Shown: positions 4,916-53,814 of the stretch, piece by piece
Position numbering within the stretch: position 1 is the first letter of the stretch
Layout of the letters: the number at the start of each line of letters is the position of its first letter
Assembly (NCBI GenBank): GCA_029948255.1
Contig: JALIZF010001769.1
Coordinates: 62,001-126,000, forward strand
Source: Telmatactis stephensoni
Lineage: Eukaryota; Cnidaria; Anthozoa; Actiniaria; Isophelliidae
Reading direction: 5' to 3'
DNA: 64,000 nt
Program-made: the position numbers and the translations under genes
Notes under the pieces: model-generated
What the model saw: the letters and a program-made list of their open reading frames with translations, nothing else
Database searches by the model: none
What the model was told of the DNA's origin: nothing

Positions 4916-7300
4916 GTGCGGTTTATTATGTTTATTACTAGTGAACGAGTCACTCAAGACAACGAAGGGGAATGGGTGTTGGAGACCAGCCAAGCAGTAG
5001 GTGAGCTAAAAAAAAAGAAGAACTGGAGTGCCCCCGGGCCAGATAAAATTGCCAACTTTTGGTGGAAACATGTGAAAATCGTACATGATGGTGTGGTGAA
5101 AGCCATTAAATCTATAGGCATGCACACTGAAGCATATCCATTATGGATTGCAGAAGGGAAGACCACCTTGATACCAAAGCCGGGGGCTTTCTCTAGTGAG
5201 AACCAAAGACCAATTACATGCTTGAACACAATCTATAAATGATTCACTTCATGCCTGCTGCAGCCGATGGATCAACACCTGTGTACCCATGGCCTAATGG
5301 AGGAGCAACAGAGGGGTGCAAAGCCTGGATGCAGTGGTACTGTGGATAATCTCCTAATTGATCAAATGGTTACTAAAGATTGCCACAGAAATAAGAGAAA
5401 TCTGAGTATGGCATGGGTCGACGTAAAAAAGGCCTATGATAGTGTCGATCACAGTTGGTTGGTGGAGATGATGCATATGCACAAGTTTCCCAAATGGTTA
5501 TGTAAAGCGATACACAACCTGTGTATGTGCTGGAATACAAGGATAGTGGCTAAAACGGCTCAAGGCTTTGAGAAGTCAAGCTCAATTCGCTTCATTAGAG
5601 GGCTACCCCAGGGTGATAGTCTTTGTCCAAGGTTGTTTACGTTGTGCATCAACCCAGTTGCGTGGAAACTCAGAGCTACGGAGGGATATCGCCTTTCCAA
5701 GCCCATTAGTACGAGCATTACACACTTGTTGTATATCGATGATTTGAAAGTATTTGCAGCTTCTGAGAGTAAGCTTAGTAGTATCTTAAAGTCAATAAGA
5801 TCAGCGATGTGTGACATTGGATTAGAATGGAATTCTAAGAAGTGTGCTGTCATCCACGTCAAAAGGGGAGAATGCCTAAATAGTGAAGGAGTGAAGCTAG
5901 ATGAGTCATCTTTGATAGCGTCCCTGAAAGATGGTGAAGAGTACAAGTTTCTAGGTCTTTCTAAGTCTTATCTACAAAGACTGGCAGTAATTTGGTCTAG
6001 TCCATTATCAGATCATAATAAAGTCACAGCATCAAATCAATATACTTTCCCTGTGATGGAATATCTGATGTGGACTTTAAAGTGGCCGATAAATGATTTG
6101 AAGAGCATTGACGGACAAGCAAGACAAATAATTGTTAATGGTGGTGGGAAGCACCCTGCTGGCTCCACAGCTCTGCTGTATTTGTCAAGGGACAGAGGAG
6201 GAAGAGGTCTGCGATCAGTGGAGCAAGAATATAAGAATATAAAGATCAAGGTGGCCTTAAAGTTATGCAATAATCCCGATGCAAGCATCCAACTCGTCAA
6301 ATAGTTTGAGGAACGATCAGTTAATCTTAAATACCAGTCTATTCTTAAAGATTCTGTCAAGTTTGCCACAGAGATAGGTCTCAACCTTTCTCTTGACTGC
6401 CCTGTTGCAAGATGTTACTCAGAAAATGGCGAGGAGATCCCCGAGAAGAAAATCAAATCAGTAATCAGGGAGGCATGCGAAGATAAGTTGCTGGAGACTG
6501 TGAGAGATGATAAATGGCAAGGAAAGTTCCTGAGCGCAAGACACGAGGATCAGGAACTAAAAGTTAAGAGTTGTTTTGCTTGGCTTAATGAGTGGCCAGC
6601 TTGTCCAACGTATACAGCAGCGGGAATGTTTGAGTTGTATGAACAACTCTTGCCCACCAAGATTTACTCTAAACACAAGACTCGTGTTACCCTGGAAGAG
6701 GATGTGATGTGCAGGTTATGTAATAAAGTACCGGAGACAATTGCACACATGTTAGCAGGTTGCTCAGCACTTGCTCAAAATAAATACCTAGAGAGGCACA
6801 ACGCTGCTCTGAAAGTTCTATTCTATGAAGTGTTACATGACCTAAAGTTACTCGAAGATGTTCCACCGTGGTACTCTCCATTGCCACCAAAGCCACACTA
6901 TGAATCGAGCAAGGCAGAGGCGTTTTGGGACATCCCTGTGTACGCCGAACATCACGAAGTGAGATCAAATAGAGTCGATGCCCGGATTGTTGATCATGTA
7001 AAGAAGAAGGTTTTGCTGATAGAAATTAGCTGCCCATGGATCCACAATAGAGGAAAGAAGGACGAAGAGAAGACGTTAAAGTATGGCCCGTTGCGGTGGG
7101 AGTTAAAACAAAGGTATCCAGAATACAAGATTGAACAGAATAATGTCATCACTGATGTGCTTGGAGGATGGAGCGAGGCAGTCGAGAGAGATAACATTGG
7201 TATCGTTGGGGAGAAAGCATCAAAGGTCCTAAAGAAGATGCAGAGGAGTATCATTTCCAGCTCACTGAACATTGCCAGAACATTTAAAGTATTGACTTGA
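4916..7300 (+). pseudogene. Reverse transcriptase-endonuclease polyprotein, two in-frame stops
   Basis: One reading frame spans the whole stretch, interrupted only by TGA at 5240-5242 and TAG at 6302-6304. RT motifs in order: NWSAPGPDKI, ENQRPITCL, MAWVDVKKAYDSVDHSW (motif A Asp), RGLPQGDSLCP, LLYIDDLKVF (catalytic pair), and YKFLG. Downstream is a CCHC-type knuckle, CRLCNKVPETIAHMLAGC. A restriction-like endonuclease follows: NRVDARIVDH and LLIEISCPW supply the acidic residues. The first stop (YK-stop-FTSC) could be a TGG to TGA change; the second (LVK-stop-FEE) fits CAG to TAG. Otherwise the frame is clean, so inactivation looks recent. Confidence -1.
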
Positions 7301-7377: not shown

Positions 7378-8325
7378 CCCTGGGTACCAGAGGCCCGAGA
7401 GGGATTGGGGAGGAGAAAGAGAGGGGGAGGGGGCCTCTGGTCACACGAGCCGTTAACCTCACTTTCATGAAAGATTATGCAAATGAGGAGTTACAAACCG
7501 GTTTTGACAAGGTCAAATCAAAATGTCAAATGAGTAATCTAAAATCTCTGCTAAGAACTCACGTAAAAACTCCCTCAAATTAGTTTTAATTTTTCCTTCA
7601 TCTCTCTCATCTCTATATGATTTACACTTTGTAAATCCATGATATTTCTTTGCTGATTATTCTCGCGACTTCTGTGGACTGTGCATAAACACAAGAGAGG
7701 CCCTAAACTTGACGCTTATGGCCAACCGCTAATGACAAACGGCAATTTGATCTTATATTTTACCCTTACCCTTAAAACAATCCAACAAGCAAATAAAGAA
7801 CAAATCTCTTAATAACTGAAAAGACGAATGTCTTTACTCAAGTGTACCAACGGCTGAGGACAGATGACTAAAGGTCGACTAAAGTTTACCGTTCGTTGTT
7901 AGCCGTTTTCTCTTCCAGGGATCGAAATCAGTGAATGACTAACACATCTCTTCTCTGAGTAAAACTCAGCAAGGCTTGTTCTTGAACTGACTTAACTGAT
8001 TCCGAATCAATTCCGAACTATTCGTATGGAAACTTTTCTAGTGACGCTTCTACGGCTTTCCTTCTTTCAAGAAGAAAGACAAGCTTGTCGTCGCTCGTGT
8101 CAGATGCCATCTTTGTTTTGCCAGGCTTGTAAAACCGGTTACGATACCAGTCATCCTGATCAACCAATCACTTTGCTGTTTCTTTCACAGAAATCTTGTC
8201 AACCAATGAAATTCCGAGTTCAGATTTTGAACTCATGAAAGTGAGGTTAACGGCTCGTGTGACCAGAGGCCCCCTCCCCCTCTCTTTCTCCTCCCCAATC
8301 CCTCTCGGGCCTCTGGTACCCAGGG
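7378..8325. mobile_element. 948 bp TIR element, TA-flanked, non-autonomous
   Basis: Terminal inverted repeats of about 93 bp (7378-7470 and 8233-8325) start CCCTGGGTACCAGAGGCC and are nearly identical. TA flanks each end (7376-7377 and 8326-8327), consistent with a 2 bp duplication. It sits in the 3' UTR of RLE-LINE element 1. No coding frame inside is convincing. The interior at about 7690-7910 resembles the interior of the Harbinger MITE at 45452-45708 (shared CTTATATTTTACxCT and CAAATCTCTTAATAAC), so it may carry an older insertion. Confidence -1.
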
Positions 8326-18135: not shown

Positions 18136-18229
18136 GCCCCAGGTCATGGGGTTGAGGCTAAGTGGTATTTTACACCTGTAGTGTGAAATTGAATCTCCAC
18201 TCAGGTTGTCTATTTATAGAAAGTCCTTC
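16653..18229 (+). mobile_element. RLE-LINE family 2, copy A, 5'-truncated
   Basis: The element begins abruptly in the middle of the RT domain right after (ATT)n and ends with the family 3' UTR (GCCCCAGGTCATGGGGTTGA ... CTCAGGTTGTCTATTTATAG) followed by (TTA)n. It is highly similar by eye to the longer copy at 18848-22712. 5' truncation with an intact 3' end is the signature of target-primed reverse transcription. Confidence -1.
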
Positions 18230-18256
18230 TTATTATTATTATTATTATTATTATTA

Positions 18257-18323
<67 letters not shown>

Positions 18324-18735
18324 GATTATGATTATGATTATGATTATGATTATGATTATGATTATGATTATGATTATGATTATGATTATGATTATGATTA
18401 TATTATGATTATGATTATGATTATGATTATGATTATGATTATGATTATGATTATGATTATGATTATGATTATGATTATGATTATGATTATGATTATGATT
18501 ATGATTATGATTATGATTATGATTATGATTATGATTATGATTATGATTATGATTATGATTATGATTATGATTATGATTATGATTATGATTATGATTATGA
18601 TTATGATTATGATTATGATTATGATTATGATTATGATTATGATTATGATTATGATTATGATTATGATTATGATTATGATTATGATTATGATTATGATTAT
18701 GATTATGATTATTATTATTATTATTATTATTATTA
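18230..18735 (+). repeat. ATT microsatellite with long (GATTAT)n hexanucleotide array
   Basis: About 90 bp of (ATT)n give way near 18323 to roughly 390 bp of GATTAT units with one phase slip near 18400, then return to (ATT)n. An apparent 228-codon frame across it is only repeated Tyr/Asp and Ile/Met and is not a gene. Confidence -1.
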
Positions 18736-18778
18736 TGAAATTAAATCTCCACTCAGGTTGTCTATTTATAGAAAGTCC

Positions 18779-18780
<2 letters not shown>
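18736..18780 (+). mobile_element. RLE-LINE family 2, 45 bp tail fragment (copy B)
   Basis: TGAAATTAAATCTCCACTCA and GGTTGTCTATTTATAGAAAG match the last 45 bases of the family 3' UTR exactly or nearly so. The fragment is embedded on both sides in (ATT)n, so it is an extremely 5'-truncated insertion. Confidence -1.

Positions 18781-18847
<67 letters not shown>
18781..18847 (+). repeat. (ATT)n microsatellite between LINE copies
   Basis: About 22 uninterrupted ATT units separate the 45 bp tail fragment from the start of the near-full-length copy. Confidence -1.
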
Positions 18848-18957
18848 GGCGGTGATCGTATTCCTCCTAGTGGTGCCGCTGGATATTCCTTCAGAGGGAG
18901 AACCGAACGTACGACCCAGAGATTTTAACACTGAGTGTTACTGGAGATTTTATTAGC

Positions 18958-19851: not shown

Positions 19852-22625
19852 TCTTGTGAAAGATAAGATGTCTGTATCAGAGATCAATAGGCTGTTGTAC
19901 ACAGGATCATTTGTTGTTGCTGATAGGTTGGGTTTGATTGGAAGAAGAAAGGGAAGAAGTTTGACATGAAGAAACCTAGGTGGCAAAGAAGGATTGAAAA
20001 GAGCATTGTTGAGTGGCGAAAGGATTTGTCTAGAGTAGAGGAGTTGAGAAAAGGTAATGTGCTGAGTAAGAAGATAATGGACCGGTTGATCAGAAAGTAT
20101 GAGGTTGTTGCAAAAGGGACAGTAGCTGTGGTTACTTTGCTCAAAGAAAAATTAAATCGGGAAGCTTGAAGATACAGTGGTATCTGGACAGTTTGCACAA
20201 AGACTAGACAGAACAATTTGTTCAAAAATAATCAGAGTCAGCTGTACAAGGAATTGGATGGAAAGGCAACCTTGGGGTCAACTGAAGCACCTGATGCTAG
20301 GGAGGCAACAGAATTCTGGAGTGGGATTTGGTCGGTGGAGAAGAGGCATAATGATGAGGCTAGTTGGTTTAGAGAAGTGAGAGATAAGACGAGTGAGGTG
20401 ACAAAGCAAGGTGAAGTTTGTATCAGTGGTTAAGGATGTCCAAGGTGGAATCCGGAAGATGGCTAATTGGAAGGCTCCAGGTCCAGATGGTGTGAGGGGA
20501 TTTTGGTTTTAAGAGGTTCAGGTCTTTGCATGGGATGATTGCAAAGAGTTTACATGGTTGTTTGACTAGAGGGCAGGTGCCAGACTGGATGGTGAAGGGT
20601 AGGACTGTGCTGATTCAGAAGGATCGTGCCAAAGGAACAGAGGCAAGCAATTACAGACCGATAACATGTTTACCGTTGATGTGGAAGCTTCTCACTGGGA
20701 TTTTGGCTGAGAAGCTGTATCAGCATTTGGACGTGAATGGGTTGTTGCAGGATGAGCAGAAGGGATGTCGGAAGATGTCGAGAGGGACAAAGGATCAGTT
20801 GTTAATTGACAAGGCTGTTTTGAGGGAAGCGCGGGTGAGGAAGAGATGTCTAGCGATGGGGTGGATTGATTACAGGAAGGCATATGACATGGTGCCACAT
20901 TCCTGGCTTGTGGAGATGTTGGAGATGGTGAAGGTGGCTGATAATGTGATGGGACTGTTGTGTGGTAGTATGAAGGATTGGAGGACTGTGTTGACATCGA
21001 ATGGGGAAGTGTTGGGAGAAGTGGGGATTAAGCGTGGAATATTCCAGGGGATTCACTGTCCCCTCTGCTGTTTGTTCTTGCTATGATCCCCCTCACCATG
21101 TTGTTGAGAAGGGAGACCATCGGGTACAAGTTTGGAAAGGAGCATCGGGTGATGAATCATCTGCTGTTCATGGATGACTTGAAGTTGTATAGTAGATCGG
21201 AGGAGGAGTTGGAGAGGTTGATTGAGGTGGTTCAGGTATATTCGAGGGATATTGGATGGAGTTTGGGTTGGACAAGTGTGCAGTGTTGGTATTAAAGCAG
21301 GGAACTAAAGAACGTTGTGAAGGGATTGTTTTGCCTGATGGTCAGGTAATGAGTGAGATGGACGAGAATGGGTATAAGTACTTGGGTGTGTTAGAAGGGG
21401 CAGATATCATGCAGAAGGAAATGAAGAAGAAGTAAGAGATGAGTACTTGAGAAGGGTGAAGCTTGTGGCAAAGTCGAAGTTGTATGGTGGTAATTTGATC
21501 AAGGCGATCAATACTTGGGCTGTCAGTGTGGTAAGGTATAGTGCTGGGATTTTGGACTGGAGTGATCGGGAGTTGAAGGAGATGGATGTAAAAACGAGAA
21601 AGAGGTTGACAATGTTTGGGGTCTTTCACAAGAAGGGGAGTGTTCCGAGGTTGTACATGAAAAGGAAGCATGGTGGTAGGGGGCTGATCAGTATTGTTTG
21701 ACTGTGTGAGGCAGAAGAGCTGGGTTTGTTTGGGTATGTTAAAGAGAGTGACAAGTGGATGCTAAAGGTGGTTGGGTGAGTCGTTGCAGGTTTGGTGAGA
21801 CAAAGAAAGGAGTAATAAGAAGAGGGTGCAGAAGGAGAGGAAAGAAAATTTCCTAGAGAAAAGGTTGCATGGAAAATTTACTGAGGGATGTGAGCGATGT
21901 TGCTGATGAGCGGTCTTGGCCAGTGGGTTAAGGGCAGGATATTTGGGTAAGGGCACTGAGGGGTTTGTTTTTGCAGCACAGGAGCAAGCTCTGAGGACAA
22001 GGTTTTTCCGGGCAACCATTCAGAAAGAGAATGTGGACCCAAAGTGTAGGGTTTGTGGGAAGGAGGTGGAGTCTGTTGGCCATTGGCGAGTGGTTGTAGT
22101 GTTTTGGCCCAGAAGCAATATAAGAAGAGACATGATCGGATGGGGTTGAGGGTGTATTGGGAGCTGTGTCGGAAGTATGGAGTGAAATGTGCCTGATGTT
22201 TGGTATAAGGAGGTTCCAGATGAGGTTAGGATTTCGGATGATGGAGAAGTAGAGATTTGGTGGGGACAGGAGCGTCGAGACAACACACAGAAGATGGAAC
22301 ATAATCGTCCAGATGTTACTGTGTTGACCGAGCGGCTCGTAAGTGGACCTTTGTTGATTTCTCGGTGCCTTGGGATCGTAATGTGGTGGTGAAGGAAGAG
22401 GAGAAAATTGCTAAATATTCTCCTCTTGCAAAGGAGATACGAAAGTTGCACCGGGTGTCAACAAAGGTGGTTCCGTTGGTTGTTGGTTCTCTAGGGGTCG
22501 TGTCTAGTAATCTTGAGGGGTACCTGGAAAGATCTAGGTATTCCAGACGTTCTGGGTGGTATGCAGACGTCTGCGGTCATAGGGGACCACCCTCATTCTG
22601 CAGAGTGTGCTTAGTCTCTAAGCCC
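19852..22625 (+). pseudogene. RT and endonuclease of copy C, many frameshifts
   Basis: The reading frame shifts repeatedly but the order of motifs is complete: MANWKAPGPDGVRGFW (20459 on), SNYRPITCLPLMWKL, MGWIDYRKAYDMVPHSW (motif A Asp), RGIFQG at 21030, NHLLFMDDLKLYSRS (catalytic pair), YKYLGV, CRVCGKEVESVGHW, and the endonuclease IWW ... PDVTV ... FVDFSVPWDR in separated frames. At least eight single-base indels are visible compared with copy A. Many lie in G or A runs (for example GGTTGGGTGAG, CAAAGAAAGGAG). The element was autonomous-type; this copy cannot make the protein as read. Confidence -1.
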
Positions 22626-24256: not shown

Positions 24257-25661
24257 ATGTCGCATGAAAATAGCAGTTCAAATTCAGACTCAAGTGATGA
24301 TGACGATCTTGATGTGTTGTTCCTCGAAACAGCGTTCGGAGAAAAGCGTAACCTTGGGGAAAAACTAAACCTGGCGGACATAAGCGAAGTCGAATGTGAA
24401 GAATTGTTTAGCTAACATTTAATGTTTTGTATGCACAAAATGTAGAATGTTTTATTGGCATTTCTATTAATGAATGACTCATGACCACCTTCCAGATTTG
24501 AAAAACACGATATGGCTCGCCTTCTTGAAGCATTAGAAATACCTCCAGTTTACATATGTCATCAGGGCTCAAGCTTCACGGAAATGGAAGCTTTAATGAT
24601 AATGCTACGGAGACTAACTTACCCAAACAGATGGTGTGACCTGGTTAACATTTTTGGCAGGTCTGAGCCTGAATTAAGCATGGTTTTTAATATGGTAAAC
24701 ATTTTTATACTTTTTTGTTTTAATAATGATACATAATAATTTGTACTCAGACAGTGTTTTAACTTTTGTAGATTGTGGATGACATATATACTCGTTTCAA
24801 TCACCTCCTAAGTGATCTGAACTTAATATGGCTAGATCCAGCACATTTTGCTCACATCATACATCAGAAGGGAGCCCCACTGAACCAGTGTTGGGGTTTT
24901 ATAGATGGGACTACTCGAAGGATCAGCAGACCTGTGCGTAATCAGAGAATTATGTTTAGTGGACACAAGAGAGTTCATTGTATTAAATTTCAGGTGTGTA
25001 ACATTTAACTATTGGATAATTGCACTTCTTTCTGCAATCATAAATGCAATCTGTAATGTATACGATCATTCAAATTGTTATTTGTTTCTGATTGTTTGGA
25101 ATGCAGCACATAAATAGTTCTATTTAAAATGCAGTGTTCAAATAATTGCACACTAGTGAAATGTGATTTTTCTACAATTTTTTTTTCCATTAATAGTGTG
25201 TGAATGCTCCTAATGGGCTTATAGCTCATCTCTATGGACCAATCGAGGGGAGGCGGCATGATGCCTTTATGCTTGGTGTCAGCAACTTACTACCACAGCT
25301 TGAGAGGATTACAAAGCCTAATGGTGATCCATATGTTGTTTATGGCGATCCAGCATATGGAGTATCACGACATATCATATCTCCATTTGGCGGAGCACAA
25401 CTAACTCCAATGGAACACCAATTCAACAGCGATATGAGTAAAGTGCGCATAAGTGTGGAATGGGCATTTGGCAAAATTTCTCAGTATTTTGCTTTCTTAG
25501 ATTTTCACAGAAACCAAAAAATTCTTTTGCAGCCAGTGGGAAAGTATTATGTAGTTGGAGCAATTTTGACTAACTGCCACACTTGCCTATATAGTTCACT
25601 TACAAGTTCCTATTTTGGATTGGAACCTCCATCACTAGAGTCGTACCTATCTAACACATAA
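24257..25661 (+). CDS. Harbinger (HARBI1-type) DDE transposase, 4 exons
   Basis: Exons: 24257-24411, 24496-24694, 24772-24993, 25197-25661. Exon 1 encodes an acidic N-terminus ending CEELF; exon 2 continues RFEKHDMARLLEALEIPPVY and MLRRLTYPNRWCDLVNIFGR. Exon 3 has the first Asp (QCWGFIDGTTRRISRP) and FSGHKRVHCIKFQ. Exon 4 has HLYGPIEGRRHDAF, the second Asp (VVYGDPAYGVSR) and the Glu (VRISVEWAFGKIS). All three catalytic acids are present. Phases agree across the three introns. Intron 1 begins CT instead of GT at 24412, while introns 2 and 3 are GT-AG. The start at 24257 is the best Met in the exon, but an upstream exon is possible. The protein should excise and insert the element with its Myb partner. 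Confidence -1.
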
Positions 25662-31065: not shown

Positions 31066-31265
31066 CCAATGATATAGATTATAAATCTGATTTTTTTATT
31101 AGTAAGATTCACTACAACAGGTTTATCAAAATGTACTATACAGCAAAACACTAGTATCCGTAATCACTTAGAATAGGTAGTGGCTCTTTGCTCTGGATGA
31201 ATAAAACTTAGGAAATAAGTGTAAAGATATTGCTTCGTGCCAGACTCATTCCAATGTGAAATTAA

Positions 31266-31995
31266 GAGATAGTCCATGGTTGAGACAGGCAGGGGCGGTA
31301 CATGCCATCTCACCAATTCGATTGAAACTTAGCCAGTTTAAAGGGGTCATCTTAAAACTACTTCAGCCAAAGTTGCTTCAGATTTGAAAAAAACGGGGGG
31401 GAGTTGACCACCCCCCCCCCCTTGGTTTCAGGGCCAAAATCAAGAAAAAATCACTAGAAAATAGCACTAAAAGGAGACAGCTCTCCTGTACACAGGATTT
31501 GATAAGTCTTCCTAGTATTTCATATCAACAATACTTATTTCTTAGATAGTTAGATGTCAGGTCCTCAGTGCTGTGTGTTGAAATGCTTGTCAATCAAAGC
31601 CTGTCAACCAATCCCCATTTTGCACTCATTTTTTGAAGGTCATAAAACATGGATATTTCAGTCGAAATATCTAAAAAAACCCAACTCATCTAACAAGAAA
31701 AAGCAAATCCCCTGAAAGCTAATACTTTCTACTAACATAAACCGCAATAAAATTTTTGGGCACTCCTAATATTTTTGCACAGCAGGTTAGTATACCCAAG
31801 GCTCACCACAGGGTACCCACATCGTGATTTAGGAACCAAACAATCTCTATTTGTCTTGAATGGCAACGTGAGGCTTCCAAATCGATAGTTATTATTCAGG
31901 TTAGCACTGAATAATGAAACCTGTTCTATAATAGGGGGGAGGGGGGAGAAACCCTGAAACTCCAAAGAAAAGAAGCCCACTCTAACACGTATGCA
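31266..31995 (+). repeat. Left TIR of the TTAA element
   Basis: Paired in inverted orientation with 38458-39182. It includes a poly-G/poly-C pair (near 31395 and 31421) and an A-rich middle. The inner limit is ACACGTATGCA, after which the two arms diverge. Confidence -1.
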
Positions 31996-32602
31996 GAACT
32001 GAAAAGTCCTTTTTTACTTACAACTAAAAGAAACTAGAGTGGTTCGATCCAGTAGATTGTAGCTGACAATAAATATGCTCACAAGCTTATCGTAGCAAGT
32101 AGCTGATCTCCCGGTGCCTTCGACGAAAAGAAATTCGATCCACAATATTAACTGTTGACATTGAGCCTTAACTTGTAACATATTTTTCGAGTTTGTCAAA
32201 AAATCAGACGTAGACATACGTACTTTAGTTTCTCTTTGCTGTTCGCGCGCAGTTCTAGAATTCCCAAGCAAGTCGAATATCTTGATTTTGGTTCATTTAA
32301 CTTCTCAATGCTTCGAGATTCGCAGGAAATTTATGAAATCACATTCCCAGCGGTGGTCAGCGGTTTACTTGACAAGGCGTGCCACAGGTAACCCAAAATC
32401 AGTATGTCAAAAGAAACACGTTTCAAATCAATGTATTGTGTTTTCTTCTTAATCGATATTTCATTTTTTCATATCAATACTTTTCTTTTGCGATGGAATA
32501 ATATTTTGTTCACAAAGCTAATTATCAAATTACACTGAGAATGATCTCGCAAATGGTGCGGTACAAAATAGCGCTACCCGCTATATGTAAACAAGGCCCA
32601 AC

Positions 32603-35600
32603 TTAAAGCTCTATTTGTCTTCTAATTTCACGACGCCTGGTGATCTCCTCTGCTTCGGTAACAAAGTCCTCTTCCTGCTCTTCCTCTTCTGTTGTGGATG
32701 CCCCAAGGCTGATTCTCCCACTGCGGTATAGGGAAGATAGCCTGCTGAAATACCTTGCTACCTGTTCGGGGGTTAGCCATTCGCTCTTGAGGAAAAGCTT
32801 TTTTCCGTCAGGGCCACGAGCAGATCTCATTTTGGTGGCAACATCGGCAGCATTTGCTTTATGGCCCGTTTCTTCGCCTCGTATAAAAATTTCCTGCAGG
32901 TGACTTCGTACAGCCTCGGGGAATCTTATGGCGCGCTTTGATCTCCTCAGGGCCCATCCACACTCAGTGGGCGCGTGTTCACCCGTGAATGAATGGGTTT
33001 CGGCAGTGGACGAGGACGAGGAGGCTCCAGCTTGGACGTAGCCTCTGGATACTTGCCGGCATGTCTCGGCCCATTTACGCCGGATATTGTCGAAGGCTGA
33101 TTCTCGCTCGGGCTCCCTTATGTGTTTACCAACATCCAGATGCCTCTGTAAAGCATTGAAGGACTGATAACGCTTAATACAGCCTTCCTCTGGGCAACAG
33201 AACGCTGAGGCCTTTGATTGATCTGTATTCGGCGAAGGAGCTGTAGAAATGCCAGGTTCTGAAGCTGGGGCCGGTGTGGGTAAAACTCTTGGGGCAGAAA
33301 AGACACCAGCCTCCACGGTAGGGATGCTGAAGGCATGGACGTTGAGGACATTGGTTGGGCCCTGTGGGTTACCATAGCCACGTAGCTGACTCTTTGTGTA
33401 CAGTTTCCCCGGACCCACTTTGTAAGCCTTCCACACACGTAGTGATCCATCAGATTGGAAGAAAAAGTTGTTTAAAGCCTGAATGCCTTTCAGTGAATGC
33501 TTTGCCATGGTCTGGCTGGCTGTGTTAATCTTCACCACGGCAACATAACACCCCATGTGACTCGATGGCTCGCTTCATGTCACTGGCATCATGGATGTCG
33601 TTGCCTTCATTAATAAATCGCCGCATGTGGCTCTTGAGTGCAGCGATTCGACAGTCACATATATCCTTCCCGGCCTGAGGTTCGCTGTAGTCGTAGCGCC
33701 TGATGTTAATGCCAACGCGAGTACCGAGGCAGGGCAAGGACAAGAGCAGGTATGCACAATGGTAGCATCCGGCATTATCTGATCTGAAATGTGCTTCTGT
33801 AACACTGGGTCGCAAGGCCTTCACTTCTCGGAGTGTGTGCTCAATGATTGATAGAACGGCAAACCAATTCTGGGTACAGTTGTCCACAGCATGCACGTAG
33901 CTTCTAGTCTAAAAATATAAGAAACCGTCGTTAAAGGAAAATGATCGCAAAGATTGGATGAAATAGTGCAGTAAATATATATTCTAGTGTGTTATGTTCA
34001 TTATATATCCACTATACAACTGCATAGTTAATCACCTCATTCTGTCCAACTTCGTTCTTCATGATCACAACGCTGACGTGCCAAGATTTGCCTTTCTTGC
34101 CAAACCAGTCCCGCTGTGTTTCGCGGAAACTGGCTGGCAAGAACTTCATGGCCCAGTCCATTACGATCAACACTTGTTGGTTGCTGAGTTCATCAATGAT
34201 ATCGCTTTTGGCAGCATCCTGATGCGCAGCGCGGACAATGTGAGATTTCCATTCCTCAATCTTGGGGATGGCTGTTTCTATATCATGCTGTATCTCTTCA
34301 CGCTGATCGTCTGAACTGAAAGATAATAATGCAAGATATAAGATAATAATGATGTAGTTCGATATTTTGGTCAAGTTTCTTAGCCTTTTACGTAAACGGG
34401 TTCAACTAGTTTGTAGCTGTTAAAAAGCGGCCAGGGGTTCCATGCAGGGGGTGGCTGCTTTATAGAGTTTTCATTGATCTTCCTATTTCGCACTATAACT
34501 ACTGCAAAAGATCTTTAAGGTGAGGTGACATTCTTAAGTTTTATGTTTTGTACTCACAAACGTGCTTCGACTGCATCGACTGTCTTCGTCAGTGTAAAGT
34601 ACAAAACATGACCAGGTTCTGTATATACCAGCGTAAATCAAGAGACCACAATACTAAGAGAGCGAAACTCAGCATTGATGTTTGTGCGATGTTCGTGGCG
34701 CCTAAGGCTATTTTTAGTAACTTCGCCATCGCGCGCGCAAGGCACTTAAACAATAGAATTCAAACGGTCCCTTCCGCGCGCACGTCAAAAATCAAATTTT
34801 ATTGGTTGAGGGCCTTGCGCGCGCGATGGCGAAGTTACTAAAAATAGCCTTAGGCGCCATGAACATCGCACAAACATCAATGCTGAGTTTCGCTCTCTTA
34901 GTATTATGGTCTCTTGCGTAAATAAAATCGTCTACAAATGTTGAAGACATTGACGAAGACCGTCGAAACATGAAAAAATATTCAAGACAGAAAAAAGAAA
35001 GAAAGAAAGAAAGAAAGAAAGAAGGAAGGAATTAAAATATAAAAAACTCAACATTGTCTCATCTTTAAGATCAGTACCTCCTATGCCTAAGTGCGTACCT
35101 GTATGCTATATCATCAGAAGACATTGCCACTTGGATATCGAGAAGCACATTCTTGCCTTCTTCACAGCGATCACATGCGATGTTATGGAGATGATCGCAC
35201 TTGCCACTGAACTCTGGTTCGGATGTACTCAGTGCATGCACACTGCAGTGGTCTGCACAGGGCTCGCAACTGCTGAGATGAATTCGGTAGTCCGTCTTCA
35301 GGTATTGTCTGTTGCTCTTCAGTTGGCGCTTCAGTTGCTGCGCTTTTTGTTCGTTTAAACCTAAAATGAACGTCCGAATAATGCAAAGTAAATAAGAGAA
35401 CCTTTCTTTAGAAGGAGACTGACATCAAAGACGAAGACACTCATATAGTCCACATTCTATGAGGAATATATTAAAATGTACTTCACTGGTAAAGATAGAA
35501 TGCATCCTTTGCTAAATATGTCCTCCAATAAATTATATTTTACAAACATGGATTCTTACCAAGTTTAGAAAGCTGAGTAACCGCTGCTTCTAAAGATGAG

Positions 35601-38086
35601 AAAGCCAACACCCCGTCAGTCTGTGTGGCATCTAAACCAGCGAGCGATTTCTTCTGCGATGCTGCACAAACCTGAAATTGATTCAAAAGCTGGAACAGTG
35701 AATAGAGCTGAAGCGAACTGATACAACTGTTTTATAGGAAAATAACACTGTTGACTGTCATCATTTATGGCGGTATATGGGGGCTGCAGTAAAGTCCAAA
35801 AGAAAACATTCAGCCCTTTGCGATTCTTGTTATCCTTCACACATTCCTTAAGTATTATTTTGCAAAATTACCTTAACAATGTTAAACAGTGTTGATCTTC
35901 CAAGGGGTGTAAAATTCATCTCTGCGCAGTACTGCTGATACAACTGGACCAGTCGAGAAGCAATCACCGTCCTTACAACGTTTGGGATCTCTATTTCCTC
36001 ACCAGTGGTCAACTTCAACTTCTTCGTGCCATAGGCCACATCTTGAAGAAAGGAAGGGCTGGCGATGAAATCCAGAAAGTGGTCTACTTTTATTGGGTCC
36101 AGCAAGCTTCGTTGTAATTTTGGTGCATCGATGGCACGACCAGGACTGTTTTCAAATGCATGACGGCGTGCTTCATCTATACTCCACTTGGAGAGCCCAG
36201 GAATCATGGCTTGTAATTCTGACTTTGAGTAATCTTTCGCAAATATGGAGAGGATCTGCCGTCTCGTAGTCCACGATGACGCTTCTTCGTACAGGCGAAT
36301 GAGAGTCGCAAGCAACTCGTTCTCAGGGAGGTTCTCAGCTGCGACACTGCAGTACCCGTCAACAACCTGCTGGAACAGCCATTTAGAGTTACCAGGTGCG
36401 ATGACATCCAACACGGTCTCTACTGCTTGGACAGCCTTACGCTTGTAATAGCGCGATGTACGGGAAGAAATCTCGGCGACATCAGATCCCAGCTGTGAGC
36501 GTAGAGGGCTGACATTCCCGTCCACTCGTCTGAGGAAGTTGTTCAAAAAATACAGCTGCTCTCTCATTTGGGGAGTCGGCTGCCACTCAAGAGAAGTTTC
36601 TACCACTGGGACCGAACTTTGACTTGAGAGCAAGGTATCAGTTGTGCTACTTTGACTGGATTCACTAGGCACTCTGTCGACAAATTGCAAACGGTGAACA
36701 GAAGGCATTGGCAGGTCCTGTTATTAAAAAAATAAAGTAAATGAATGAATGAATGAATGAATGAATGAATGAATGAATGAATGAATGAGTCAAAATGAAT
36801 TTCAATGACATGTTGGATTCATTAATTTTTGTCTGCCTTATGCAATTTTAGAGCTTCAGTACACCTAAATAAGAAGACATACCAAAGACTCATCTAAATC
36901 GCCTTTGGGTGACTGAAGTGCTGCAGCTGCACCCGAGTGTACAGATTCGGTACTGCTATTCTTTGTTTCCTCATTAATGCCACTAGAAGGGCCTTCATCG
37001 GGTAACAGAGCAGGTATATGGACTTCCTCCTGGGAAGCTGGCAGTTTGAACGCTGCCTGATGATCACTACGGCAAGCTCTACAGATACCTGTAATAACAA
37101 GAAACCATAAATACACTGGCTAATTAATTATATAAACTTGTTATCTGCTTTTTGTTTTTTAGCTTGTCAAGGGCTGGGGTGGGGGAGGGAGGAGGATGGA
37201 TAAGCTGGAGAAGGGAAAAGTGGGCGGAGAGCCTGTAGTAATGCTTTTAATTTCAGAACCTTTTTCTAGTATACCAGCTTCTTGTATACCATTTAATTGG
37301 TCAATTTAAAGAGTTGGTAATACTGTATGCCAAACATGCATTTGGGTGATTAAACCCAGACATCTAATTGTATCTATCAAAGAGAGATGTAGGGGAAGTT
37401 TCTTAACAAGTTTTATGGTGTTCAAGGAAGGTTTTTGAGAACCTAAAATGTGATAAACAAAAATGATAACTACAAACGACTGCTTACCTTTGACTTCAAT
37501 CAACTAGTCAATGAAAGATAGATTTGATGAGGAAAGTGCATTGGAAATCGAAAGCCGGGATGTATTTCAATCATAAGCTAATTGTTTGGTTTTACTGAGG
37601 TTCCTTTTTTTTTTTTGCTAGAGTGTTATTGCATGTCTGCTACTGTTTAACTGGTCGCCGCAATGTGAGGTAAATAAGTCACATACCTGCACCTACAGGA
37701 ACTAAAACATCCCATTTTTGTTTGATTTCTTTGCTGAGTTTCAGGTTAGCTCCCCTTTCTGGTTTCCTTTTGCTGTTCCCGTGCAAAGGATGCTTGCATT
37801 TGTTTTGCCTTTTCCAGTGCTTTCCAAGCTCATCTCTGTGCTTAGGGCATATTGTTAATGTACTGTCGTCTTCATCAAATAGTCCAGCTCTAGCAAGAAT
37901 GAGCTCTTTCTCTGAGGCAGCACACGACTGGGCAACGCTGAGTTGCCTCAAATGAGCCTTAACATTGCCGGTGCACGCACTCAAAGGAAGGATCCTAGTG
38001 TGGCTCGGGTTCTTGAGTGAGAGGCCACAACTGCTGTTTGTAACGAACGATGCCGCGAACGAACAAGACAACTCCGGTGAAGCCAT
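32603..38086 (-). CDS. Putative DDE-type transposase with C2H2 finger, 7 exons
   Basis: Minus-strand exons: 38086-37687, 37088-36883, 36717-35872, 35671-35560, 35360-35099, 34315-34036, 33908-32603. All introns are GT-AG and all phases agree, giving about 1,130 residues. Exon 1: cysteine/histidine motif CPKHRDELGKHW; exon 2: GICRACRSDH. Exon 3: KVDHFLDFIASPSFLQDVAY and RSTLFNIVK; exon 4: VCAASQKKSLAGLD. Exon 5: DHCSVHAL and CDHLHNIACDRC. Exon 6: VLIVMDWAMKFLP and WFGKKGKSWHVS. Exon 7: HFRSDNAGCYH, YSEPQAGKDICDCRIAALK, then a C2H2 finger CPEEGC-(12)-H-(4)-H. The MDW, SDN and EPQ/GKD acids could form an RNase-H-like triad; this is inference. One frameshift lies in GGGG near 33552. Homologues are numerous uncharacterised cnidarian proteins as far as I recall. 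Confidence -1.
34639..34916. mobile_element. 278 bp foldback MITE in intron of the TTAA gene
   Basis: Arms of about 107 bp (34639-34745 and 34810-34916) are inverted copies beginning CAAGAGACCACAATACTAAG, separated by a loop of about 65 bp. CGTAAAT flanks both ends (34632-34638 and 34917-34923), a 7 bp duplication (8 bp if the outer G is shared), as in hAT-type MITEs. It lies in intron 5 and does not touch splice sites. Confidence -1.
34995..35030 (+). repeat. (GAAA)n microsatellite
   Basis: About eight GAAA units ending GAAGGAAGG, in the same intron as the foldback MITE. Confidence -1.
36740..36789 (+). repeat. (AATG)n microsatellite
   Basis: Twelve uninterrupted AATG units in intron 2 of the TTAA-element gene, just upstream of exon 3. 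Confidence -1.
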
Positions 38087-38457
38087 GCATACGGTGGACG
38101 AGCTGGCTCACCAAAAGGTTGAAAAGATAACCTTACTGAATTCGAATTTAAAATTTCAAGCTAAAGGCAAATAAGAAATACAAAATATGACAATATTAAA
38201 AGCCAAAGTCCCAGTCAAAGTCAGACAAAAAGCTTGCAGGCGTTCCTAGTGAGGACAGAAAAAAGTCTGGTAACTAAGCGCGGATCCTATTGCGGTGATC
38301 ATAATTCTATAGCTTGGCCTTTCGCCCATTTTCAAATTGTAGATGATAAACTCTTCCTTTTCAACACAGAAATAATCTACAAATAATAACTTTTTTTAAC
38401 TGACAAAATACGTACCACTTTGCCGACAGACGCCGGCAGAGGATATTTTCATGAGCT

Positions 38458-39182
38458 TGCATACGTGTTAGAGTGGGCTTCTTTTCTTTGGAGTTTCAGG
38501 GTTCCTCCCCCCTCCCCCTATTATAGAACAGGTTTCATTATTCAGTGCTAACCTGAATAATAACTATCGATTTGGAAGCCTCACGTTGCCATTCAAGACA
38601 AATAGAGATTGTTTGGTTCCTAAATCACGATGTGGGTACCCTGTGGTGAGCTTTGGGTATACTAACCTGCTGTGCAAATATATTAGGAGTGCCCAAAAAT
38701 TTTATTGCGGTTTATGTTAGTAGAAAGTATCAGCTTTCAGGGGATTTGCTTTTTCTTGTTAGATGAGTTGGGTTTTTTTAGATATTTCGACTGAAATATC
38801 CATGTTTTATGACCTTCAAAAAATGAGTGCAAAATGGGGGTTGGTTGACAGGCTTTGATTGACAAGCATTTCAACACACAGCACTGAGGACCTGACATCT
38901 AACTATCTAAGAAATAAGTATTGTTGATATGAAATACTAGGAAGACTTATCAAATCCTGTGTACAGGAGAGCTGTCTCCTTTTAGTGCTATTTTCTAGTG
39001 ATTTTTTCTTGATTTTGGCCCTGAAACCAAGGGGGGGTGGTCAACTCCCCCCCGTTTTTTTCAAATCTGAAGCAACTTTGGCTGAAGTAGTTTTAAGATG
39101 ACCCCTTTAAACTGGCTAAGTTTCAATCGAATTGGTGAGATGGCATGTACCGCCCCTGCCTGTCTCAACCATGGACTATCTC
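38458..39182 (-). repeat. Right TIR of the TTAA element
   Basis: Inverted copy of 31266-31995. It lies about 370 bp upstream of the gene's start codon, so it probably contributes promoter sequence. The left arm lies past the stop codon. Confidence -1.
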
Positions 39183-39413
39183 TTAACTACAAGAACGTTT
39201 TATTGCTCTTTTCCTATTTTCCGAAACCTCATTTCTTAACAATAATCTTACTCTCTTTACTTTGCAAAACTTTCAAAAAATGGAATCACCATATTGAGAA
39301 ATTGTAAACGTTTACAATTAAAAGAAAAAAATCAGAGACAAAAACTTTAAAAACTTTGAATATTAAGAAATGTTTGGCTTTAATACAGACTGAATAGAAG
39401 GCCAGTTTTATCT

Positions 39414-47503: not shown

Positions 47504-49240
47504 ACATACATACATACATACACAAATACTTTATTCGTCCTCAAAAAGGCTTTTCAGAATAAAGGTTATAAAATACATAAATAAATAAGTAAATAGATAA
47601 ATAAATGGATAGATATAAATTAAGATAAAATTGACTGATAGAACTATATTGTTAAGTAGGAGACTTATTCTATTTTAAATCAACTTCTTAATTCAAAGTT
47701 GCTTAATTCATCTTCAGAGTTAACTAAAATACTTGGTTAAATCAAAATATCATTGATAATAACTTATAATTAGAGGATAGACTTATATCTACTATCAAAA
47801 ACTTATTATATAATGCATAATTTATGTTTCTACAAATTTTGAAACTAAAGTTTTCTTCAATAAAAGTTTGAAGTCTTTTAATGTTGGCATCAATTTCAGA
47901 GCAGGATCTAATGAGTTCCAAAGTTTAACTGTTCTGTAATAGAAGGATCTTTGTCCTGTGGCAGTTCTACATAGGGGTATCTGTAACATCTGTGAATTTC
48001 TTGTTGTACGTTTGGCAATGCTTGATCTTTGGATAAATCTGGAGCATAAGGAGTCTGGTGCTAGCCCAGTCATACATTTAAATGCCAAGATTGCGTTACG
48101 GTAGTAAAGCTGCTGCCTGACTGGCATCCATCGTAACTCTTTAAGAAGTGGTGTAACATGGTCATACTTTCTTTTATTACCAATGATACGGCATGCAAAG
48201 TTCTGCACAGTTTGGATCTTGTTCAGATTGGCTTCTGTAGTATTATTCCATACATTGGAACAATAAAAGAGCTTGCCTAAAATTAAAGCATTTATCACAA
48301 TGGTTAGGGTGCTTTTATCAAAAGCATGCTTCACTCGATTTATTTGACCTAAGCGTGACATGCAAGTCGAAACTGTCGATGCCACATGCTCATCATATGT
48401 TAGATTGGAGTCAAGAATAACTCCAAGATCCTTTGCAGATTTAACGGGTGAAAGTTCCTTGCCAAGTAAGGTTAAATGAAAGCCCTCCACCTTTGCGGTC
48501 ATAGCTCTGCTACCAAAAATGATGAGCTTAGTTTTTTCAGGATTTATGAGCTGATTTTCGAAAGTCCAATTGGAAATTCTACGTAGATCTTGGTTGAGTC
48601 TGGCCACAGCATTTGGCTGGTCTTGAAGATGAAAGTTTAGCATCAGTTTAGTATCGTCAACATAAAATTGCGTGGAGCAGTGCTCGGGAACACTTGGAAG
48701 GTCATTGATGTATATACTAAATAGAAACGGCCCCAGAATACTTCCCTGGGGCACACCGCAAGTTACAAGACGATCTGAAACAGCTGTTTGGATTCTCACC
48801 ACTTGGTAACGCGGGGAAAGATAGCTGCGAAACCAGTTAATGGCCAAAGATGACAGTCCCATATCCTTAAGTTTTGCGACGAGAACTTGGTCTATGCTGT
48901 CCAAAGGCTTTGCTCATGTCGAGTAGTACGGTAGCAGTGAGCTGTTTCTTGTCGATGGCCTGCAGAATGGTGTCAGTTGTTTGAATAATGGATGTCTCCA
49001 TGGAATTCCACTTTTTGTTTCCACATTGCTTTGATGTTAAATGTGTTTCCTATACTAAATAAGAAGTTAGTTGATCATGAGCAACCCCTCTCACAAACTT
49101 TTGAAAGCACAGGCAATAGTGAGATTGTCTGATAGCCTGTTGTTGTTAGGAATTTCGTGGTCACCATCTTTTAGAATAGGTACGATTTCAGCTATTTTCC
49201 AAGCGAGGTAGCGTTGACGACTGACGTGACTGCTGGCAGG
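47504..49240 (-). mobile_element. L2/CR1-type LINE, 5'-truncated
   Basis: Minus-strand element. RT coding is followed by a 3' UTR with AATAAAGTATTTG and a (TATG)n tail at 47504-47525, as in L2-group LINEs, which end in short tandem repeats rather than poly(A). Upstream coding can be traced in broken frames to about 49235 (WKIAEIVPILKDGDHEIPNN, SLLPVLSKVCER). The endonuclease domain is missing. Confidence -1.
47822..49025 (-). pseudogene. L2/CR1 reverse transcriptase, one-base insertion
   Basis: The main frame (48904-47822) reads GVPQGSILGPFLFSIYINDL, TQFYVDDTKLML (catalytic FYVDD, here in place of the usual YADD), SAKDLGVILDSNLTYDEHV and a normal C-terminus (LWNSLDP, FKLLLKKTLV). Just upstream the frame is shifted: LTATVLLDMSKAF is followed by GGACAGC where GACAGC is expected for KAFDSID, so a single extra G at about 48900 breaks motif A. 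Apart from that the RT is open for 360 codons. Confidence -1.
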
Positions 49241-49518: not shown

Positions 49519-50628
49519 TTAAATTTGTCCGAACAATCGAACGTGCCTTTCTGCTAGGAAGGCCGCAAGCTCCACGCACACAGGTAGAAGCCATCTAGGG
49601 TGCCTCCATATGGAGCCTATAGCTTTGTAGCATTTCATTTCTTTAAACACGTGCTCTACTTTGACTCGTCTGCTGGAATGGCACCTGTTAAACTTTGCAG
49701 CACGTCGTCTTTGCCTTCTATTTAGTAAAGGCATTTGGTTCGCCCTGACCGGCGTCATTAGTGGTCCACGACCAGGATATCCTTTGTCAGCCAAAAGGCA
49801 AGCTGCCGGAGGGAGGTCAAGTGGTTGCCCGGGCCCAATGGGTGTCATCAGACCAAATGACCCCGCGTCATTCATGCTACCAAGAAAGCCAGCCTGAACG
49901 AACCTCAGATGTCCTAAGTTATCGATAATGAGCTGAGTGTTCATACTGTGGTAGTGTCGATGTCCACTGTAGAAGGCACGCTGTGGTTCTGTTATGGGTC
50001 TGTATATCTCGTGAGGGGATGCATCTATAGCCCCAACTGCGTTCGGAAACTCTGGCCAATTACCCATTAAATTAGCCCACTCGGCCAGTGAATCTGGTTT
50101 TGAAAATATCGCCAAAGTTCGGGTAGTATTTTATAGATAGTGCGGGTCACAGTGGATGGGTCAACGTCGAACCAAAGAGCCAGGTTTTCCACATGCATGT
50201 ATTTGCGCATCCAAAGCATTACAAGCAAAACCTGATTGGTGATGTTAAGTTGTGATAGTCGCAGTCGTTGACGCGGCAACCCATCTCTAGTTAAACGTTG
50301 AGAAAGGAGAAATATCGTTGACTAGTTGTAAAAACGATTGTGTTGTTTCCCCTGTGTTTCTCCAAAATAGCCACGGTTGTCCTGCGATGAGAGAGAAAAC
50401 ATCTCTACCGTTGAAACCACTACCCCTAAAGCCAGGTAACAACCTCTGATTTAAAGGAATACTTGTACTTCGCAAAGATGGCTGCAAAGCACTGAAAAAT
50501 ACCAAAAACTGTGCTACAATTAAAAGGATTACTTGAAGCTCATCAGCGTCCATCGCGCTAGTGATACAATGATCAATTAAACGCATACCACCTCGCGTCA
50601 TTTTTGCGTGCAATAACGTAATGCACAT
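49519..50628 (-). pseudogene. DDE_4-type transposase of the ISL2EU-like element
   Basis: N-terminal part (50628 on): FLVFFSALQPSLRSTSIPLN, GQPWLFWRNTGETTQSFL. A frameshift near 50310 leads to LPRQRLRLSQLNITNQVLLV and a helix-turn-helix-like MRKYMHVENLALWFDVDPST. A second shift near 50075 (HWPS to AEWANL) leads to the catalytic part: NAVGAIDASPHEIYRP (Asp 1), YSGHRHYHSMNTQL, ACLLADKGYPGRGP (Asp 2) and RRVKVEHVFKEMKCYK (Glu). The triad is complete and only two frameshifts break it. HTH plus DDE in this order is usual for IS5/ISL2EU-related eukaryotic transposases. Confidence -1.
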
Positions 50629-52074: not shown

Positions 52075-53814
52075 TACAGGCTTTACAGACTCTAAAACAT
52101 CAGGTAAGAAACCCCTGTGAGATTTTAGATTATGATTTAGATTTTAACTCAGCCTTTTACAATCACATAGCTCGGCTGAGAAAGTATTTTGAAAAGAATT
52201 GTGAGACATTTGCTGCCGGAAACTTGTCCCATTATCTAAATAGCTGGAAAGATCTAACCTCGGATAGAGAGATCCTTAGGTGTGTCGCTGGACTTAAAAT
52301 AGTATTTGACGGGAAACCACAGCAACACCGAGTTTACCCGCCTAAATTTAGTAAAAAGGAACAATTAGCCATAGAAAATGAACTTGAAAAATTGGAGAAA
52401 AAACAGGTCATAGAGCCCACCGGGCATGACAATGGTGAGATTATCTCTCCCATTTTCGTTAGACCTAAAAAGGACGGAAGCCACAGGCTTATCCTTAATC
52501 TAAGGAACTTAACCAATTCTCGCCGAAAGTTCATTTCAAAATGGATACCTTGCATACCGTGCTAAAACTAGTTCAGCGCAATTGTTTTATGGCATCTATT
52601 GATCTGAAAGATGCATACTATTCTGTAAGAGTAGCCAAAACCGACAGGAAATACATTAGATTCATGTGGAAAGATAAGCTTTATCAGTACACATGCATGC
52701 CAAACGGATTATCGTGCGCCCCACGACAATTCACAAAGCTACTAAAACCTCCCCTTTCTAAACTGCATCGCATGGGGCATATTGTACTGGGCTACATTGA
52801 TGATTTCTATTTGCAAGGCAACACTTACAATGACTGTGTTAGTAATGTTATTGCTACCTGCGATGTTTTAAATTCGCTAGGGTTTTACATACACCCTGAT
52901 AAATCAGTTTTTGAGCCTAGTCAACAACTTCTGTTTTTGGGGTTCAATATTAATGCTGTTACCATGAAAGTAACCTTAACCGAGGAAAAGGCGGAAAACT
53001 TAAAATCCCCGTGCACATCGCTACGCAGCAATCCCAAACCAACTGTGAGAATAACGGCACAAGTGATAGAGACAATTATCTCCTCTTTCTCGGGATCAAA
53101 GTATGGACCCCTGTATTTTCATGCACTCGAAAGGGATAAAACGGAGGCGCTTAAGGTGCATAAAGGGAATTTTGACAGCGACATTACTCTGTCACCAGCC
53201 GCTTTACTTAAACTAGATTGGTGGATCAACAACATCCCCAGAAACTATGGTTTTATAACTCTGCCGGATCCTGACTGCACGCTAACAACAGATGCCAGTA
53301 ACGATGGTTGGGGGACAGTGTATGACAATAATTCCAGTGGCGGTCAATGGACGTCAGAAGAAAAAACACATCACATTAATTATCTTGAGCTTTTTCAGTT
53401 TTTTTGGGAATGCAAACATTCCTTACAAATCACAAAAATATATATGTGCAGCTTATGATTGATAATAGCACCTCCGTTGCGCATATCAACAATATGGGTA
53501 CAAGCCATTCTAGGAAGCTTAACTCGCTCTGTAAGGAGGTTTGGGAATGGGCTATATCACGAGACCTATGGCTTAGCTCAGCACACATTACAGGTAAACT
53601 AAACACGAGAGCAGACTTTGAGTCGCGAGACAACCGCGCAACACACGAGTGGAAACTAGATCCGGTTAAACTTAACAATGCACTTAGCGACCTCAAGGTT
53701 ATGCCAAAAATCGATTTGTTTGCCTCGCGCATAAACCAAGAGTTTACGACATACCTGTCATACCGACCGGACCCCAGTGCGTTTGCCATCGATCTATATC
53801 TTGGACTAATTTAG
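52075..53814 (+). pseudogene. DIRS reverse transcriptase and RNase H
   Basis: The frame begins ALQTLKHQVRNPCEILDYDL, before any ATG. RT: VYPPKFSKKEQLAIENELEK, ISPIFVRPKKDGSHRLILNL; a one-base shift near 52525; FKMDTLHTVLKLV, FMASIDLKDAYYSVRV (motif A), GLSCAPRQFTKLLKP, VLGYIDDFYLQG (YIDD catalytic pair), FLGF. RNase H: LTTDASNDGWGTVY, then NYLELF. A second shift near 53405 leads to VQLMIDNSTSVAHINNMGTS and SSAHITGKLNTRADFESRD. The catalytic residues of both domains are present; two frameshifts inactivate it as read. Confidence -1.

Follow-up and report, generated by a model that had tools for sequence, protein, structure and literature searches.

A young TTAA-inserting DNA transposon in the sea anemone Telmatactis stephensoni, with a predicted DDD transposase and a probable place in the Sola superfamily

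The DNA considered here, hereafter the window, is a stretch of 64,000 nucleotides from the sea anemone Telmatactis stephensoni (contig JALIZF010001769.1, positions 62,001 to 126,000). It carries a young, recently mobile DNA transposon, 7,917 bp long without its flanking TTAAs, which inserts at TTAA and encodes, in a single seven-exon gene, a putative transposase of about 1,140 residues with a predicted DDD (not DDE) core. It is likely a class II element of the cut-and-paste type that represents a young family of the Sola superfamily, probably Sola3. An earlier note on this DNA, made from the letters alone, had seen in it a lineage that cannot be placed. Against this stand the profile homology of the DDD core to a family that we take to be Sola and the fit of the published Sola traits; hence, the element most probably belongs to a known superfamily, reportedly described by Bao et al. 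in 2009 (Sola1, Sola2 and Sola3), rather than to a new one.

Structure and copies of the element

The element is bounded by long inverted arms (Table 1), and the TTAA at both outer ends is exact, as the earlier note had read it. The arms themselves are real, though slightly longer than the 725-730 bp it had proposed: counted with the TTAAs they measure 734 nt (31262-31995) and 729 nt (38458-39186), differ by five mismatches and two length differences in C/G runs, and keep their identity, base by base, up to the TTAA on either side. The termini read GAGATAG.., i.e., 5'-GA..TC-3'. When the host genome (483.5 Mb in 1,782 contigs) was searched with the 729-base arm, 27 matches were found, including both arms of four further complete copies; thus, the arrangement is neither due to chance nor a local duplication, and the possibility that the arms occur only here falls away. 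Arms and gene recur together in five complete copies (the window, C685, C74, C887 and C8) with the same ends, each in different flanking DNA, and arm-to-arm identity inside them is 98.2-100%. Pairwise substitutions among the five number 36-53 per 7,908-8,220 aligned bases (0.46-0.67%), so the family moved recently on the evolutionary scale, in keeping with the youth first proposed for it. A sixth copy, C665, excluded from this comparison because its right end is cut short, is older, with pieces 94-97% identical to the window. Shorter pieces matching the arm lie at C866, C258 and C525, with weaker end matches elsewhere in the genome.

A hairpin resembling a miniature inverted-repeat transposable element (MITE; Table 1) sits in intron 5 of all five near-identical copies, whereas C665 lacks it and has a single CGTAAAT at the same place; it was thus probably inserted during the history of the family and then carried along. 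A tetranucleotide repeat in intron 2, at about 36740-36800, varies in length between copies.

Integration at TTAA

For seven insertions, including two of a 10.2-kb sister family described below (C330 and C459), the left and right flanks were put together around one TTAA and looked for in the genome, with 40 of 517 candidates scored. The join was spanned by single alignments for five of the seven: the window (8 places, 92-97%), C685 (8 places, 98-99%), C74 (1 place, 99%), C887 (4 places, 94-98%) and C330 (at least 12 places, 96-98%); among the candidates scored, none was found for C8 or C459. Six empty places were read, and each has one TTAA. All 54 bases around the join match the joined flanks in the empty sites of the window (at C62), C685 and C74, while two bases differ for the window (at C568) and for C330 (52 aligned bases) and one for C887. 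The C330 element lies inside a reverse transcriptase gene, and once its flanks are joined the reading frame is restored, open over 266 residues and with RVT_1 matching across the junction. With TTAA at all ten ends of the five complete copies and a single TTAA in empty sites for five of the seven junctions, the 4-bp target-site duplication and the empty sites show the outcome of integration. The window element itself lies in repeated sequence, its joined flanks matching C62, C568, C411, C297, C1, C66, C1446 and C438.

The gene and its predicted DDD core

Between the arms lies one gene on the minus strand, and a splice check bears out the seven exons, matching phases and GT-AG introns (six of six) that the earlier note had described. 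Its product would comprise, in order, an N-terminal Cys/His-rich part, a long helical region, a Cys/His cluster, the RNase H-fold DDD core, a C2H2 finger and a C-terminal part. The description of the gene as nearly intact is also apt: compared with C74, C887 and C665, exon 7 of the window copy falls short by 11 nt, and the reading frame does not continue beyond about residue 820, so that the full protein is not made and this copy could move only with protein from another. Spliced on the model of the window copy, C74 and C887 both give a coding sequence of 3,423 nt that contains a single internal stop. In C685 there is at least one internal stop and the first 18 bases of exon 3 find no match; C8 carries an additional base in exon 1 and, in exon 7, an insertion of 2.3 kb; and exon 1 of C665 is disrupted.

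Table 1. Features of the transposon, in window coordinates
Feature	Position	Strand	Basis
Left TTAA target-site duplication	31262..31265	.	Exact; one TTAA in empty sites C62, C568
Left terminal inverted repeat, starts GAGATAGTCC	31266..31995	+	98.6% identity to right arm
Exon 7: predicted D2 (RSDNAGCYH) and D3 (GKDICD), C2H2 finger, C-terminal part; frame-shifted	32603..33908	-	Splice check, copies, alignment
Exon 6: predicted first catalytic D (IVMDWAMKFLP)	34036..34315	-	Splice check, model, alignment
Nested 278-bp MITE-like hairpin, 122-bp arms, flanks CGTAAAT	34639..34916	.	Repeat search, copy comparison
Exon 5: CxDHC..CxHxH..CxxC Cys/His cluster	35099..35360	-	Splice check, copy comparison
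Exon 4	35560..35671	-	Splice check, copy comparison
Exon 3: mostly helical region in models of relatives	35872..36717	-	Splice check, copies, colinear intronless relatives
Exon 2	36883..37088	-	Splice check, copy comparison
Exon 1: ATG at 38086, N-terminal Cys/His-rich part	37687..38086	-	Splice check, five-copy comparison
Right terminal inverted repeat	38458..39182	-	Arm comparison
Right TTAA target-site duplication	39183..39186	.	Exact; empty sites

The assignment as a DDD transposase follows from the alignment of relatives, in which the three predicted catalytic positions are D in 42, 41 and 41 of 42 sequences, and from two predicted models with an RNase H fold. In predicted fold, strand order and the placing of acidic residues the core resembles that of retroviral integrases, from which it differs by the low sequence identity (6-17% in the rows listed) and by having D, not E, as the third residue; the integrase matches come from a second aligner and are confined to Foldseek's own top 1000 chains. 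Structures of piggyBac, hAT and P transposases are not among the structure-match rows listed, which excludes nothing. For one of the models (m301e5b1347be, of P0007, a relative of the window protein), the best predicted viral protein is ORF109 of Ostreid herpesvirus 1 (E 3.3e-3, probability 1.00, 148 columns), which may be an RNase H-fold relative.

An unannotated family with sister subfamilies

A protein search gave 352 relatives at E <= 0.001, of which 120 were listed; the alignments A1 and A3 hold 42 and 50 of those 120. Named among the matches listed are anemones and corals (Actinostola, Exaiptasia, Oculina, Porites, Paramuricea), lancelets (Branchiostoma), the nemertean Lineus and the limpet Patella, most listed proteins being unnamed, and the named entries are annotated as uncharacterised, hypothetical or C2H2 proteins. 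Precomputed annotation gives no Pfam domain for any of the 120. For the window protein, spliced and taken as far as the frame break, no Pfam family matches at E <= 1, seven stretches of it without exon 4 give only sub-cut-off Pfam matches (best 0.012) and nothing below 0.05 in NCBIfam, and a 161-residue core piece has no match among PDB sequences. Nine Pfam families, none of them a transposase family, are matched among the 42 relatives at E <= 0.01, most often SAP (4 members) and C2H2 (2), and the profile of these relatives matches PDB chains via C2H2 fingers only (0.0032 and weaker). The Pfam scan names other mobile genes of the window, which indicates that the scan itself works. A carrier of viral or bacterial origin was sought in viral and genome contigs with two to six peptide patterns per scan; no relative was found, a weak negative.

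Intronless relatives in the same genome align colinearly with exons 3-7, sharing 40-44% identity up to the frame break and 30-32% beyond it. In comparisons between subfamilies the synonymous sites have reached saturation (pS 0.81-0.85), unlike the nonsynonymous ones (pN 0.29-0.43), so selection has maintained the protein; dN/dS within two subfamilies is 0.27 and 0.35, values based on few changes. When 150 of 396 candidates from a genome search for the wider family were scored, 37 lay in open frames of at least 900 residues; for two of them the matched part contains a stop. One sister family, of 10.2 kb (L017-L022), is found at C459, C330 and a third contig, C129, which has the same flanks as C459 and is not an independent insertion. 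Its ends read TTAAGAATGAGTC, its arms of about 692 bp share 99.0-99.6% identity, over the first 155 bases it is 71-72% identical to the window element, and its frame with D2 and D3 is open over 438 residues on all three contigs. In the intronless subfamilies (L029-L034) the frames run to 817-971 residues from the first Met, and the arms, of about 987 bp (L029, L030) and 783 bp (L031, L032), are near-identical between paired loci, with ends TTAAGTGTCATTG. Four of the five subfamily ends compared have GGCAG at position 27-31. L033 and L034, near-identical over 7.3 kb, were counted as one, as were L041 and L042, and given the duplicate contigs some of the near-identical sets in the wider family may be alleles rather than copies.

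Placing the element: Sola and its rivals

In the accessible part of one description (PMC10741241), Sola elements have a DDD transposase, 4-bp duplications, very variable ends with terminal inverted repeats (TIRs) of 11-1124 bp, and lengths mostly of 2-9 kb with some over 15 kb. The present element resembles them in its predicted core and its 4-bp duplication, and its length of 7.9 kb and TIRs of 734/729 nt fall within these ranges, as do the 10.2 kb and ~692 bp of the sister family and the TIRs of ~783 and ~987 bp in other subfamilies. Beyond these traits the element has seven exons and a C2H2 finger, the comparison being with Sola as described. Sola2 elements of slime moulds have AWWT duplications, according to the available part of PMC3627910. 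A literature search for Sola3 with TTAA yielded no Sola3 target in the accessible parts of the texts found, including PMC5199201, PMC8634313, PMC10294476 and PMC4455052. The reference for comparison was located by a short motif of Sola-like proteins with 24 matches in this genome, in frames of up to 1,039 residues. Sola3 is taken to target TTAA, which no text found confirms. The resulting HGKG(P/A)(C/V)DG family (L037-L039 and L041-L042, with MDFAENY and HGKG..DG), presumably Sola, has 203 relatives at E <= 0.001. Its alignment, A4, holds 39 of the 120 listed and three loci, L040 being unused as its longest frame is another protein.

Against the profile of the element family, three reference sequences score Prob 94% (E 1.3e-7), 42 reference sequences over their whole length 96.6% (E 6.7e-10), and the cores alone 98.0% (E 2.8e-13, 193 columns), whereas five column-shuffled versions score 0.1-0.6% and Kolobok proteins (see below) against the reference family 0.2%. 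The three aspartates align as MDWAMKF/MDFAENY, SDNAG/TDSPT and GKDICD/GKGPCD. By profile alignment, the two families share the same DDD core.

Several observations weigh against the interpretation as a Sola-type transposon. The 120 listed of the 203 reference relatives carry no Sola label or Pfam domain, and none of the slime-mould Sola2 relatives named in the accessible part of PMC3627910 is among them; the reference family, found by a short motif, stands in for named Sola sequences. The one reference locus of which the ends were read (L041/L042, about 4.65 kb) differs from the element in having a TIR of only 26 bp and a non-TTAA duplication, ACTAG (5 bp), or ACTA (4 bp) with one end base unpaired; these ends neither prove nor exclude Sola. 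Neither predicted model has a Foldseek match in PDB or BFVD at E <= 0.001. Two of six ends from three other subfamilies have GTAA, the other four TTAA. Finally, a clean full frame is found in none of the six copies in this assembly, which bears on the present activity of the family.

Some of these points would also agree with a separate DDD superfamily, tied to Sola as distantly as superfamilies are to one another, under which the verdict that the element cannot be placed would stand; we regard this as unlikely. It would account for the window protein lacking Pfam and NCBIfam matches within the scopes given above, for the core unmatched in PDB, for a tie to the reference family at the profile level only, and for TIRs so unlike those of the single reference element read. 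It is, however, countered by the alignment of all three catalytic positions with shuffled controls near zero, and by the great variability of ends in the published description of Sola itself.

TTAA is the target of piggyBac and Kolobok, the two best-known TTAA movers, and the earlier note had recognised the protein as neither, a judgement that motif, profile, Pfam and end comparisons support. The Kolobok controls were drawn from 121 matches to PF20700 in the same genome, extended to 164 proteins, of which 120 were listed, and aligned as A2 (27 of those and one locus). They were taken as Kolobok because members show the DxxH motif, the zinc cluster and, in some, the exonuclease domains given for KolobokD in the accessible part of PMC9587614. 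The element shares with Kolobok the TTAA duplication and, in this family, 5'-GA..TC-3' ends that obey the 5'-RR..YY-3' rule; the 10.2-kb sister likewise starts with GA, but three other subfamilies start with GT or AC. A C/DxxH between D2 and the last acidic residue is found in 0 of 40 members of the element family versus 23 of 24 controls (the 24 of 28 with the anchor motif). The comparison of hidden Markov models that the earlier note had proposed gave, in hhalign against the 28 PF20700-type proteins (one Kolobok lineage type), a Prob of 0.2-0.3%, i.e., no similarity. Neither PF20700 nor THAP matches the window protein up to the frame break or appears among the nine families of the 42 relatives. 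A Kolobok lineage is therefore rejected as very improbable, on a comparison with one Kolobok type.

The case for a divergent piggyBac, which consists in the TTAA duplication, is feebler still: the GAGATAG ends differ from the piggyBac terminal motif CC[C/T]T (PMC2872659, in the part available), and PF13843 (DDE_Tnp_1_7) has no match at E <= 1 in the window protein as spliced and read to the frame break and is not one of the nine families of the 42 relatives at E <= 0.01, though the same model finds 120 matches elsewhere in this genome. That the single intron-bearing gene is a domesticated host gene caught in a local inverted duplication is refuted by the exact empty sites and by complete copies in five unrelated locations, and has next to no probability.

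A possible route of transposition

On the reading as a Sola-type cut-and-paste element, the transposase would bind the long arms, which carry GGCAG near the end in four of the five subfamilies compared, and would bring both ends together. Cuts would be made at the TTAA border of the element, and the freed ends would attack a new TTAA on its two strands, staggered by 4 bp, gap repair leaving a TTAA on each side. Excision, the overhangs and the role of each part of the protein are postulated here, as are DNA binding, the chemistry and a cut-and-paste rather than copying mode.

Implications

A new family of a known superfamily being most likely, the interest of the element lies in the size, openness and unannotated state of the wider family: genes of an animal family that had no annotation are identified as putative transposases, and their sites of insertion are located exactly in one genome. 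If this reading is right, at least three transposase cores, seemingly unrelated in sequence (piggyBac, Kolobok and the present one), would have reached TTAA targeting, and the basis of that choice would become testable by comparing them. A natural place to seek an active element of this superfamily would be the other subfamilies, which have long open frames and loci that are nearly identical. Should the separate deep superfamily be the true account, it would take in hundreds of proteins annotated as uncharacterised, as well as many long open frames in this genome, and an active TTAA-specific mover unrelated to piggyBac could exist in nature.

Surroundings in the window

The Pfam scan of the window also finds DDE_Tnp_4 transposase pieces at 25197-25661 and 49519-50130, which we take to be Harbinger-type. 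RVT_1 stretches at 5243-6304, 20496-21086, 47822-48913 and 52499-53458 indicate that the window is rich in retroelements. A long simple-repeat tract at 18162-18928 is open in several frames.

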